Shown here: positions 1,365 to 9,651 of the stretch, one piece after another
Layout: the number at the start of each line of letters is the position of its first letter
Numbering within the stretch: position 1 is the stretch's first letter
NCBI GenBank assembly: GCA_927911695.1
Contig: CAKMQO010000186.1
Location: 1-10,068 of the forward strand
From: an uncultured Gemella sp.
GTDB taxonomy: Bacteria; Bacillota; Bacilli; Staphylococcales; Gemellaceae
Direction of reading: 5' to 3'
DNA length: 10,068 nucleotides
The notes under the pieces: model-generated
What the model was told of the DNA's origin: nothing
Databases searched by the model: none
The model's input: the letters and a program-made list of their open reading frames with translations, nothing else
Translations under genes and position numbers: made by a program

Positions 1365-2590
1365 TTATCTATCAACTAATGTAAATCGCACTTCAATCTT
1401 GAAGACTCCATCTTCTGGTGCATATGCTTGAATTGTTTCTTTATGTTTTTCTGCTATAAGCTGTGCCATAGATAATCCTATACCATAACCTTTTATCGCA
1501 CTATTTCTAGATTCATCTAATCTATAGAAACGATCAAAAACTTTGCTTAAATCACCTTTTTCTACATTAGCTTTATTAGAAACTTTTAAAGTAGCATATT
1601 TTCTATTTTTATTAAGTTTAACCAATATATCACTATCTTCTGGAGCATATTTAATTGCATTTTCTAACAGTATATCCATTAATTGAATTATAGAATCTTT
1701 TTCTCCATAATAATTCAAATTTTCATCAATATCTGTCACAATATATTTTTTCTGGAAGTTAGCTAACTCATCAAAGTCCTCAATTCTCGACTTCAAAGTT
1801 TCAGTTAGATCAAAACTAGTTCGCTCTACAGTATCTTTTTCTTCCATTCGACTAAATACAACCAAACTATTTACCAAGCTAGTCAATCGATCAACCTGAT
1901 TATGAATATTGGTAGTCCATTTTGAATCTCCATTCATCATCTCTAATACATCAGCATTAGAACTAATGATAGCTAATGGTGTTTTTAACTCATGACTAGC
2001 TCCTGTTATGAATTGTTTTTGTTTTAAATATGTCTCCTGTATTGGTGCTATTACCTTTTTTGATATTAGAATAATTAAAACAAGTACTGATAGTATTACT
2101 CCTATTGAAATTAAAACACTATTTTTCACAAAAGATTCATAAGAATCAAGTTCACGTTGGCAATTTAAAAATAGTATTAAGTTTCCTACATTTGTTTCTA
2201 CTTTTAAGAATCTATAACTACCTATAAATCCACTTGTTTTTCCTTTTTCTAATGCTTCTATCACTTTGCTTTGCAAAGTATCTTGATCCTCTATTAAACT
2301 ATCATCTCGGTAAGCTTTAATTATTCTACCATTATTATCGACTTTTGCAATTGAAAAACCATTATATTCTGTAGCACTTGATGAATTTTTAGTAATTACC
2401 AAATCATCACCATCTTCTGCAAAAATTTTTATCAATGCTTGTGACCTAGAAGCATCTAATAAAGTTGTATCTATTCTTTCTTCTAGTTTATTAAAGTTAA
2501 TGAAGTTCAATGCTATTGCAAGTATCGCTATTACTACAGCAACACTACCAACAGCAGTGGCTATAAATTTTTCCTAAGACTCTTAAACAT
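1365..2590 (-). pseudogene. Two-component sensor histidine kinase, N-terminal frameshift
   Basis: This is a membrane sensor kinase that would phosphorylate the response regulator encoded just upstream. The expected start is ATG 2590, overlapping the regulator stop by 8 nt; it reads MFKSLRKNL and then stops at 2561-2563. Adding one A to the A5 run at 2568-2572 gives MFKSLRKKFIATAVGSVAVV, a normal basic start plus first membrane helix, joined to the 381-codon frame that is otherwise open from a TTG at 2510. The order is: TM1, an outside domain of about 100 residues, TM2 (VLISIGVILSVLVLIILI), HisKA with the phospho-accepting His in ASHELKTPLA (DNA 1992-1994), then HATPase_c with N box LLENAIKYAPE, F box VFDRFYRLDESR and G2 box GYGIGLSMAQLIAE. 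The catalytic core is complete. If the shift is real, the kinase would lose TM1 and normal membrane insertion. Confidence 0.85.
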
Positions 2591-3627: not shown

Positions 3628-4378
3628 TTATTTTCTTCCAATAACTAGTCCGCTTTGGATAAAATCTTTCATTTCTTTACCATATCCCCATTTTTCCGCA
3701 TATTCATCTGATACGTCTGAATTAATAATTTGGAACTTCGTAAATCCTGATTTTTCAATAATCTCAGCCATCTCTTCTTCCAGAAGAGCACCAGCCACTC
3801 AAGTACAGTGCATTCTACTAGAATTTTTCCATTCTAGTGGCAACTCTTTTTTCAAAATAATATCAGATATTACAAACATACCATCTTCTTTTAGAATACG
3901 ATAAATTTCGTCGTATACTTTTTGTTTATCTGGTTCTAGATTAATAACACAGTTACTAATAGCTCTATCAACCGACCTATCTGCTAAAGGAATATTTATT
4001 AATTCTCCCTTAATAAATTCAATATTATCAAATTTCTTATTATCTCTAACCTTCTTCGCTTTTTCTAACATTGAATCCAATCTATCTAAACCATAAAGCA
4101 TTCCTACTTTAGGATTTTTCATCTTAGTAATAAAAATATCCATACCTGCTCCACAACCTAGATCTATTAAAGATTGCCCTTCTTTAATTTTCAAATGATT
4201 AATAGGATTCCCACAAGAAAGCCCCATATTTATCTCATCTGGAAATTCATTGATAATATTTTCATCATACCCTAGAGATTTACTCAGTAGCTTCGGATCA
4301 ATTTTTGTCTTCTGTTTATTTTAGAAATATTATCATAAAAGTTATCAACCGATAATCTTATTTTCATATTATTTGCAT
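3628..4378 (-). pseudogene. arsM: ArsM-type arsenite S-adenosylmethyltransferase with in-frame TGA
   Basis: A methyltransferase that in this family transfers methyl groups from SAM to As(III) in the cytoplasm as detoxification. Motif I is IDLGCGAGMDIF. Family hallmarks are GLSCGNP before it, SNCVINLEPDK (the SNCV cysteine binds arsenic) and GMFVISDIILKKELP. AAAGGAGGA lies 7 nt before ATG 4378, which reads MQII and stops. ATG 4367 opens MKIRLSVDNFYDNISK, and a third frame continues with KIDPKLLSKSLGYDENIINE into the core. One A added near 4374 and one in the AAAA of TCTAAAATAAA (about 4330) repair the N-terminus. After MHCT a TGA (3799-3801) interrupts the frame, which then continues VAGALLEEEMAEIIEKSGF to a TAA at 3628, about 247 codons in all. 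The TGA sits at the second arsenic-binding cysteine of the family. No ars operon neighbours are visible. Confidence 0.8.
3772..3788 (-). promoter_or_regulatory. SECIS-like hairpin candidate after the arsM TGA
   Basis: On the minus-strand RNA, CUCUUC pairs perfectly with GAAGAG around the loop UGGAA. Exactly 16 nt separate the UGA from the loop and the second loop base is G, which meets the minimal rules used for bacterial SECIS elements. Below an internal loop, GGCU can pair with GGCU through two G-U pairs. The sequence is also the coding stretch for LLEEE, so chance pairing is quite possible. Confidence 0.3.
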
Positions 4379-6848: not shown

Positions 6849-8158
6849 TTAGTTCTCCTCTCTAATTTCGATTGCTCCAAGTTCTTTTGCTACATAGTTA
6901 GTAGCTAATATTTTTACATCATGATTTTCTGGATAGAATCTTGTCGAAATTGTAAATGATCCACCATTAGCGAATAATTCAATTGATGAACTATCAAATA
7001 CTATTTCTACATCTTCTAAATCCAATTTATATTTTTTATCATTTCTTCCGTAACCACTAGTACCAAAAGAAATTTTTAATTCTTTATTTTCATAGCTTAC
7101 TTTAAAATCAGCTACACTGATCTCAAAACTTTCTCCATGCTCTTGTTTATAATACCATGTATTTTTATTAAAGTCATTAGTTTCAATCTCATTACCTAAT
7201 AAATCTTTTACCGATTTATGTAAAGTTTGTCTAACTTTTCCATCTTTATAATTTACTACACGGGGTATAGTTAAACAGTTTTGATAACCAAACTTTGTTG
7301 TCGGATTTGTATAACTACTATCCGGCACATACATCCACCCGATTAGTACACGATTATTATCATCATCTAAAAATGTTTGTGCTGCATAAAAATCATGCCC
7401 ATAATCTAATAGTGTGAAGTTATCTAATTTATCTACATTTTCAATTCCTTCTTCTACAACAGAATATCCAATTTGATACATATTTTCATAATATGGATAC
7501 ATTCTTGTAATACCTTGAGGTGAAAACATAAATATTTCTTTTCCATCTACTTCAAAATAATCAGGACATTCCCACATGAATCCTAGATTTTTTTGTGAAT
7601 AAATAGTTTTATACGGTTTAAGAGTATCTTTATCATATACTAATAAACATCCATAATCATTACTATCTCTAGCACCTAGCACTAGATATTTTTTTCCATT
7701 TTTTTCAAATATCTTTGGATCCCTAACATGATTTGACATATTAGGGTAATCATCTGTTTTTAACAGACATTTTTTCTCAGTAAAATTAATTCCATCTTCC
7801 GTTTCAAAAGATATGGTGTTATGACCACGTCCAGCATGAACGTAGTCATAATCACCTTTATATTTCACATTTCCTGTGTAATAGAAGACTAATTTTCCAT
7901 CTTCTATATTAGCACTTCCTGAATACACACCATGAGTTTCTTCTTCAATAGTTGGTGTTAAGAAAACGCCACGATCTTCATAATTTTTTAAATCACTACT
8001 AGTATAGTAGTACCATAATTTTAACCCACCATTACTTCATATGAATATTGGTGAAAAATATGATACTTACCATTAAAATAAGCTAATCCGTTAGGATCAT
8101 TTAGCCATCCTTTAGTAGGTTCTAAATGAAGATTTTGTTTCCAGTTATTAGCTAGCAT
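6849..8158 (-). pseudogene. scrB: Sucrose-6-phosphate hydrolase (GH32), frameshifted
   Basis: Cleaves the sucrose-6-phosphate made by ScrA into glucose-6-phosphate and fructose. ATG 8158 overlaps the scrA stop by 11 nt. The N-terminus reads [20 protein letters not shown] with the nucleophile Asp21 in WLNDPNG, then runs into a stop at 8021-8023. One base added at about 8032-8033 (GTAATGG to GTAAATGG) gives [20 protein letters not shown] and continues through RGVFLTPTIEEETHGVYSGS into the long frame. The other GH32 motifs are intact: VRDPK (Arg-Asp stabilising the transition state) and WECPDYF with the acid/base Glu. A C-terminal beta-sandwich region follows. The repaired length is about 436 residues, near the low end for the family. 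If the shift is real, the protein starting at internal Met 7928 lacks the nucleophile and is inactive. Confidence 0.9.
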
Positions 8159-9323
8159 TTACTAGTTCCTTCTTAGTTTTGAAAAAGTATGCTGTTACTG
8201 AGAATGAAACGATGAATGATAATGCTAAACCAATACCAAATGTTGACCAGTGGTTAGCAGGAATTGATAAGAATCCTGGAAGACCAGCTGCTCCTAATGC
8301 TGATGCAAATACTTTGTTTAACCCAATCCATGCACTTCCTACCGCACTTCCTACAATAGCTCCATAGAATGGATATCTAAGTCTTAAGTTAACCCCGAAC
8401 ATAGCTGGTTCTGTAATACCTAGTAATGCAGAAATACCAGATGCTGATGAGATTGATTTCATTTTTGTGTTTTTAGAGAATACTAATACTGCAAGAACCG
8501 CTGCACCTTGCGCTACGTTAGACATAGATGCAATTGGGAAGATAAATGTTAATCCTGTCGCAGCTAGTAATTGAGTTTCGATAGCTGAGAAGCTTTGGTG
8601 TAATCCAGTGATTACGATTGGTGCGTAGAATAATCCGAAAATACCTGCTCCTACGAATCCACCTTGCATGTATAACCATTGTAACCCTTGACCTAATAAA
8701 GTACCAGCTTCACGAAGTACAGGCCCCATCCATGCGAATGTTACGAATCCAGTTACGAATAATGAAACTAATGGTGTAGTTAAGTTGTCTAACCATGATG
8801 GAGTTACACGACGTAAGAATTTTTCAATTGTCGCTAATAACCAAGCGGCTGCTAGAATTGGTAATACAGTTCCTTGGTATCCTACTTTAGCAATTTTAAA
8901 CCCGAATACATCCCAGTATTGAAGAGATGTAAGTCTTTGTAGACCATCAACTGCTTGACCACTTTGGTTAACGATATCTAAAGCTGGAGCAAGAAGTTGG
9001 TTTGTAGATGGATCTAATTTACCAAATGTATAGAAGTTCATTACATCTGGGTGAACCATTAACATCGCTAGTGCAGCACCTAGATATGGATTACCACCAA
9101 AACGTTTAGTAGCAGAGAAACCAATTAATACAGGTAAGAATACGAACGGTGCATTTGCAAATACGTTAACCATATCAGCAAGACCTGCGATACCTGGATT
9201 AGCTTCAATAACTGATTTACCAGTGTAGAATAAATCTTTCGCTGTTAAGACATTGTTAATCCCCATTAAAAGACCACCAGCTACGATTGCTGGGATAATC
9301 GGAACGAAAATATCACTTAACAT
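8148..9323 (-). CDS. scrA: Sucrose PTS permease, EIIC domain (3' part of scrA)
   Basis: The membrane channel domain of the sucrose phosphotransferase permease, which moves sucrose in while it is phosphorylated to sucrose-6-phosphate. The 391 residues carry many membrane segments, starting with [20 protein letters not shown]. The conserved motifs are YQGTVLP (149-155) and [13 protein letters not shown] (302-314), the latter characteristic of glucose/sucrose-type EIIC. In relatives this domain continues directly from EIIB. Here it is separated by one extra base: GTAAAAAATG has six A where five would read through as FVKMLSDIF. The ATG at 9323 overlaps the EIIB stop by 11 nt, so a separate EIIC made by coupled reinitiation is possible, but I see no dedicated ribosome binding site. 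No EIIA domain is present, as usual for IIBC-type ScrA; a glucose-type EIIA must serve from elsewhere. Confidence 0.9.
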
Positions 9324-9651
9324 TTTTTACAAAACGTTGTAGTGGATTCCCTTTTGGTTTTTTAGAAGTAGTTTTTTCACCTTCTTCTTCAATTGAAGCT
9401 CCACCTTTGTATACCTCATTGTACTTAGCGTACACTTGTTGAACAAGACCACTTCCGAAGATTAATTGAAGTTGACCGTTATTAAAGAATACACCTTTAA
9501 CACCTTCAATATCTTCTAATTTTTCTTTATTATATTTTTTTTCATCGTTTAATTCTAAACGAAGACGAGTTGCACAGTGAACAACAGAGCGTAAGTTTTC
9601 CTCACCACCACTATGTTCAACAACTTCTTTTACAACTTTTTTTAAGTCCAT
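9313..9651 (-). CDS. scrA: Sucrose PTS permease, EIIB domain (5' part of scrA)
   Basis: The cytoplasmic EIIB domain receives phosphate from EIIA and passes it to sucrose bound in EIIC. The phosphorylated residue is Cys26 in VVHCATRLRLEL, the standard EIIB motif, followed by GVKGVFFNNGQLQLIFG. ATG 9651 has AAAGGAG 8 nt upstream. Residues about 80-105 form a charged linker (IEEEGEKTTSKKPKGN), then NPLQRFVK, where the family runs into EIIC. Because of the A6 run at 9323-9328 the frame ends instead with NVK. Removing one A joins it to the downstream frame as one protein of 500 residues. This is the first gene of the scr operon and lies directly behind the operator-promoter region. Confidence 0.9.
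   Translation of the reverse strand: MDLKKVVKEVVEHSGGEENLRSVVHCATRLRLELNDEKKYNKEKLEDIEGVKGVFFNNGQLQLIFGSGLVQQVYAKYNEVYKGGASIEEEGEKTTSKKPKGNPLQRFVKNVK

Follow-up and report, generated by a model that had tools for sequence, protein, structure and literature searches.

The window analysed here, a stretch of 10,068 nucleotides, carries on its minus strand a gene for an ArsM-like protein with an in-frame TGA. Comparison with related genomes indicates that selenocysteine (Sec) is very likely inserted at this codon. The gene product would be an ArsM-like SAM-dependent methyltransferase with selenocysteine as its third arsenic-binding residue. The UGA is proposed to be decoded as Sec because a SECIS hairpin follows inside the coding sequence, from where it would direct decoding by SelB and tRNA-Sec. 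Methylation would take place on As(III), or on a related metalloid, bound by the Sec selenolate and two conserved Cys thiols. The codon had been put forward as a selenocysteine candidate in the first-pass annotation of this DNA, and the proposal is supported by a conserved TGA/Cys pair, by sel genes in relatives and by a SECIS-like hairpin. Coordinates are listed in Table 1.

Table 1. Features of the arsM locus in the window.
Feature	Positions	Strand	Basis
In-frame TGA, proposed selenocysteine codon, in the CmArsM Cys224 column	3799..3801	minus	alignments of orthologs and solved structures
ArsM-like methyltransferase, part 5' of the proposed Sec codon; SAM-binding domain; columns of the other two As-binding Cys in SCGNP and SNCVINL	3802..4227	minus	family profiles, alignment
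ArsM-like methyltransferase, part 3' of the proposed Sec codon up to the TAA; absent from public proteins ending at the TGA	3628..3798	minus	frame, dN/dS
N-terminal ~50 codons of arsM, out of frame in the window via single-base differences in A/T runs	4228..4378	minus	alignment to relatives
SECIS-like hairpin, 7-bp stem CTCTTCT/AGAAGAG, GGA loop at 3779-3781	3772..3788	minus	folding

Reading frame across the TGA

Open reading frames of the window were listed under genetic code table 11. The minus-strand frame of arsM reads ...RMHCT-TGA-VAGALLEEEMAEIIEKSGF... and terminates with a TAA at 3628-3630. The first-pass annotation had correctly described a frame that continues past the TGA after MHCT, but its length of 57 codons counts the stop; 56 sense codons lie between TGA and TAA. 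These 56 codons are kept as protein by purifying selection. Downstream of the TGA, dN/dS is 0.026–0.121 in seven of the eight pairs of the window with a TGA-bearing relative (dS is saturated in the eighth pair), and upstream it is 0.019–0.102 against the same eight relatives.

Protein family, fold and arsenic-binding residues

The best NCBIfam match of the part before the TGA is the arsenite methyltransferase family NF008823 (E 2.2e-49, 168.4 bits, cut-off 263 bits). The full-length ortholog of genome G001, with C read at the TGA, reaches 219.5 bits. This score is below the cut-off and the protein is therefore called ArsM-like. In the part before the TGA, Pfam family PF13847 (Methyltransf_31) is matched with 102 bits at a cut-off of 27. 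The predicted model has a pLDDT of 88.1, and its 13 best Foldseek matches in the PDB are ArsM/AS3MT chains with query TM scores of 0.61–0.67. As modelled, the protein has a SAM methyltransferase domain and an ArsM-like fold. Arsenic is presumably its substrate.

CmArsM aligns across the catalytic domain. In the alignment with solved structures the TGA column coincides with the Cys that CmArsM has in YGECLGGAL, Cys224 by count; the first-pass annotation had rightly placed the TGA at the arsenic-binding Cys column. The columns of CmArsM Cys72 and Cys174 are both occupied by Cys in the window protein, and all three As(III)-binding Cys/Sec columns are found in the ArsM-like protein. We take Cys72, Cys174 and Cys224 to be the arsenic-binding residues of CmArsM. 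By their titles, the structures 5jx7 and 5eg5 are the mutants C224A and C72A, respectively. Compared with CmArsM, CrArsM and human AS3MT, the Gemella protein would have Sec in place of Cys224 and is shorter (250 aa in G001).

The codon in relatives

Inspection of this codon in close relatives had been proposed in the first-pass annotation. An ortholog is present in all nine same-genus Gemella genomes examined. In the DNA alignment the window and eight of these nine orthologs share TGA at this codon; the exceptions, the ninth Gemella genome (G006) and the sister-genus genome G015, carry the Cys codon TGT. The TGA-bearing frames of the eight relatives are otherwise open over 255–280 codons. A repeat search found arsM in 10 of 15 genomes of the family, with exactly one TGA in eight and no internal stop in two.

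At E <= 1e-30, 85 of 398 Firmicute genomes match. Internal stops are present in three of them: a TGA in G001, a TGA in G319 and a TAG in G372. Genome G319 belongs to a different Firmicute family and also has its TGA in the Cys224 column. The genome that carries the homolog with the in-frame TAG (G372:C183:2573-3160) gave no selA match at E <= 1e-60. Across the 43 genome rows fetched, the column holds Cys in 34 and TGA in nine. When the database relative P0069 was used as query, 24 of 398 Bacilli genomes matched at E <= 1e-30, with a TGA in G001 only. Among annotated plasmids, no match to the locus was found.

Among public proteins, 143 relatives were found at E <= 1e-40. The 120 of these that were listed comprise 90 whose last residue directly precedes the TGA column, 26 with W in the column, three with C and one fragment. 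The W forms are probably gene calls made under a genetic code in which TGA specifies Trp. Four of the six named loci with the same protein are from Gemella (haemolysans twice, sanguinis and bergeri), and the window is accordingly assigned to Gemella. Gemella sanguinis and Gemella bergeri are represented among the listed matches by a 'methyltransferase domain-containing protein' of 194–195 residues, cut at the TGA. The proteins P0069, P0102 and their kin are ~60% identical to the Gemella ArsM and either end at the TGA column or have W in it; two residues before that column they have Asn, not Cys.

A tree was calculated from 53 rows that we selected, 43 of them genome loci and 10 database proteins. 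The proteins of Gemella and G015 and the W proteins form a single clade (100/100). Within it, six TGA rows group with the Cys forms of G006, P0009 and P0010 (fork 97/89); a weak fork (92/13) sets two further TGA rows outside this group. P0009 is named Gemella cuniculi. This topology suggests a return from Sec to Cys in the G006/P0009/P0010 lineage.

SECIS-like hairpin

In the window the stem of the hairpin begins 10 nt after the TGA, and the spacing from TGA to loop is 17 nt. Folding of the 48 nt from the TGA gives an MFE of -10.9, versus -5.0 ± 2.0 for a synonymous-codon null drawn from these arsM genes (fraction as low, 0.0065). For the nine TGA-bearing Gemella genes, which are non-independent, this fraction ranges from 0.005 to 0.0515. 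The corresponding values of the Cys genes are 0.55 (G006) and 0.37 (G015), and within the Gemellaceae an above-null hairpin is found only in TGA versions. The hairpin of G319 is weak (-6.9, null fraction 0.41). At the same place, the Cys gene of G006 has a weaker hairpin of 8 bp with a 7-nt loop (-5.1, within the null); here the hairpin persists in weakened form. The zero energies obtained for the Cys genes from 21-base cuts overstate the loss, since folds of 48 nt show that G006 keeps a weak hairpin.

Published limits for bacterial SECIS elements, as given in a passage of PMC13188914, are a loop of 3–9 nt, a stem of 4–16 bp, a G in the first two loop positions, a spacing of 16–37 nt and an MFE <= -7.5. 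The window hairpin lies within these limits, with a 3-nt GGA loop, a stem of 7 bp, a spacing of 17 nt and an MFE of -10.9 over 48 nt. Energies at or below -7.5 are found for eight of the nine TGA-bearing Gemella genes; G008 is just short of this value with -7.4, and G319 (-6.9) is outside it.

Codons 148, 149, 150 and 152 are identical across the nine TGA genes. All nine use CTG for Leu at codon 149. In the ORFs of 200 aa or more from the stretches of five relatives, CTG accounts for 49 of 2028 Leu codons. The longest synonymously invariant run of the gene comprises five codons and ends at the hairpin codons, with a permutation p of only 0.048. The single change within the hairpin (G005) alters the amino acid and preserves the stem.

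A control set of 3786 TGA triplets, taken from seven stretches that are partly homologous, was compared with two SECIS models. The loose model fits 100 of them. The strict form (GG loop at +17, stem of at least 7 bp) fits five, all of which are arsM in the five stretches with the TGA form. The TGA of SelD in G004, which lies within the tested stretches, is absent from these five. In SelD the predicted hairpin loop has the same position as in arsM in seven of 10 genomes; in the other three it is one base earlier and has 5 nt. Rfam at the gathering threshold finds no family in the window, and the hairpin is therefore without support from a curated SECIS model.

Selenocysteine machinery

The first-pass annotation had also suggested a search for the sel genes. 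The genes selA, selB and selD and tRNA-Sec(UCA) are present in all nine same-genus Gemella genomes examined, a set to which the window's own assembly does not belong. Matches to selB and tRNA-Sec above cut-off occur in the same 11 of 60 genomes, namely the nine Gemella genomes, G010 and G015, and ARAGORN assigns a tRNA-SeC with anticodon tca to all 11. Both selA and selD are above cut-off in 10 of 16 genomes (nine Gemella and G010). SelD is itself a TGA protein, and selD contains one TGA in 10 of 10. Presumably, the machinery is also present in the cell from which the window derives.

In G004 the genes are arranged as a run of selD, yedF, an ORF, selB, a gene of the cysteine desulfurase family and selA. 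The ORF between selB and yedF (L131 8607-8882) encodes 91 aa, and an 88-aa ORF occupies the same place in G015. Neither ORF has an NCBIfam match at the thresholds used.

Alternative explanations

The first-pass annotation had regarded a Cys codon mutated or misread to TGA as the simplest alternative. The gene would then be decaying, its TGA a nonsense mutation or a base-call error and the remaining frame a remnant. A single base change converts a Cys codon to TGA and there are other single-base lesions in the arsM of the window. However, the same TGA recurs in eight other Gemella genomes with otherwise open frames, so that a mutated or misread codon is rejected; the purifying selection downstream of the TGA likewise contradicts a remnant. 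As judged from these orthologs, the TGA is real and no random lesion. The probability left to this explanation is negligible, and it is refuted for the TGA, whereas it may apply to the N-terminal lesions of the window. Scarcely more probable is a reading of the UGA as another amino acid, either by near-cognate readthrough with Trp or Cys or by a code in which TGA is Trp. The 26 listed database relatives with W in the column would agree with this. The non-TGA genome rows, on the other hand, are without exception Cys and never Trp, the W forms are best explained by the choice of code in gene calling, and the same-genus genomes possess Sec decoding, including a SelD with TGA.

Sec insertion generally competes with termination. 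The UGA could thus be a genuine regulated stop, with the truncated protein (193 residues in relatives) as the main product and Sec readthrough as a selenium-dependent switch. The 90 listed public proteins that end at the TGA do so because of gene calling and are no evidence on the product. Two points speak against a regulated stop: without Sec, the truncated form would be missing the third arsenic-binding position, and the sequence beyond the TGA is maintained as protein. A truncated main product is therefore considered unlikely, and insertion of Sec into a full-length ArsM-like enzyme is preferred.

Known selenocysteine-containing ArsM proteins

Sec-containing ArsM is already known from other bacteria and the Gemella protein would add another case. 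Sec-containing ArsM is named among the experimentally verified families in a passage of PMC9312934, citing Fomenko et al. 2007, and is likewise listed, with the motif UxxG, in a passage of PMC13188914. Sections of two further sources give 41 Sec-containing ArsM selenoproteins from 39 organisms (PMC5029168) and eight marine Sec-ArsM sequences (PMC2398784). The word Gemella is absent from the main texts of PMC9312934, PMC13188914, PMC5029168, PMC12013277, PMC5330540 and PMC1794560; Gemella may still be among the 39 organisms. Among the publications listed by a full-text literature search, none is titled on Gemella selenoproteins, and the four Gemella passages of PMC8082489 concern airway microbiomes.

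The Gemella protein resembles the Sec-containing arsenite methyltransferase (ArsM, PRK11873/NF008823) in its best NCBIfam match, in the UxxG Sec motif (UVAG in Gemella) and in the exchange of Cys and Sec. It differs in coming from a genus of the Bacilli and in scoring below the family cut-off (219.5 versus 263 bits). The fused selenoproteins ArsM_DUF2284_UU (NF041536) and ArsM_AhpD_UU (NF041537), as described in part of PMC13188914, share the ArsM domain with Sec and UxxG. In contrast to these, the Gemella protein would have a single Sec and ends 56 codons after the TGA, without a fused second domain carrying further Sec. Its scores of 131.9 (NF041536) and 130.4 (NF041537), at cut-offs of 575 and 510, place it outside both families.

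If the assignment is correct, a genus common in the human mouth and airways reads UGA as Sec and employs it in an enzyme resembling metalloid methyltransferases. Public gene calls that stop at the UGA would then leave out the C-terminus and, with the Sec, the third arsenic-binding position, and annotation would have to be corrected genus-wide. Furthermore, G006 and the remaining genomes would provide a natural Sec/Cys pair inside one genus for gauging the contribution of Sec to ArsM catalysis. A testable link of ArsM to the sel gene run would also be raised.

Possible link to selenium metabolism

In G015 (L132, G015:C4, ~4400-11970) the run selD(TGA)-yedF-orf88-selB-desulfurase-selA is followed by the Cys-type arsM. 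This genome of the sister genus is a draft of 66% completeness. Its arsM starts 12 nt after selA on the same strand, a position that hints at a selenium-linked role. Among the genomes compared, arsM adjoins selA only in G015. Comparison of coordinates by eye revealed no other arsM beside selA, although contig breaks could hide some; the nearest is 8.3 kb away (G176). G010 has sel genes, but arsM was not found there at E <= 1e-30, nor in the 9.5 kb that contain its sel genes.

A general link of arsM to sel genes was considered and not adopted. Among Firmicutes, selA is present in 75 of 85 arsM-bearing genomes (70 of 80 plus G001, G443, G449, G450 and G451) versus 180 of 313 others (Fisher p 4.5e-8, with kinship ignored). 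The comparison assumes that both 398-genome searches cover one set, as their sizes and the listed handles suggest. With the gene order of G015 as the hint, the Gemellaceae enzyme might act in selenium metabolism, instead of or besides arsenic detoxification, by methylating excess reduced selenium or a selenium-metalloid species. With Sec as the catalytic residue, full-length synthesis would rise with the selenium supply and form a built-in selenium-sensing loop. This role is speculative and rather improbable.

Lesions elsewhere in the window

The first-pass annotation had reported probable frameshifts in arsM and lesions in its neighbours, and both were found. Single-base length differences in A/T runs break the first ~50 codons of the window's arsM; this N-terminal frame is open in all ten aligned relatives. 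The frameshifts are far from the TGA and thus have no bearing on it. Compared with two or three relatives, single-base length differences, mostly in A/T runs, are present at window positions 1365-2580, 3628-4378, 6849-8160 and 8148-9651. The genes affected are a histidine kinase gene, arsM and two sucrose genes, the last two named from their translation only. Since the relatives have intact frames, these differences are likely assembly or read errors in the window.

Synonymous divergence of arsM shifts at the TGA. Between the window and G001, dS rises from 0.18 before the TGA to 0.91 after it; between the window and G005 it falls from 0.84 to 0.38. These opposite shifts make a recombination break near the TGA of the window's arsM likely. 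The genome nearest to the window, G001, has 57% of the sampled 31-letter words in common with it. The segment 8180-9678 of the window, a sucrose PTS gene by its translation, is absent at this place in G001 and present in G004 and G005.
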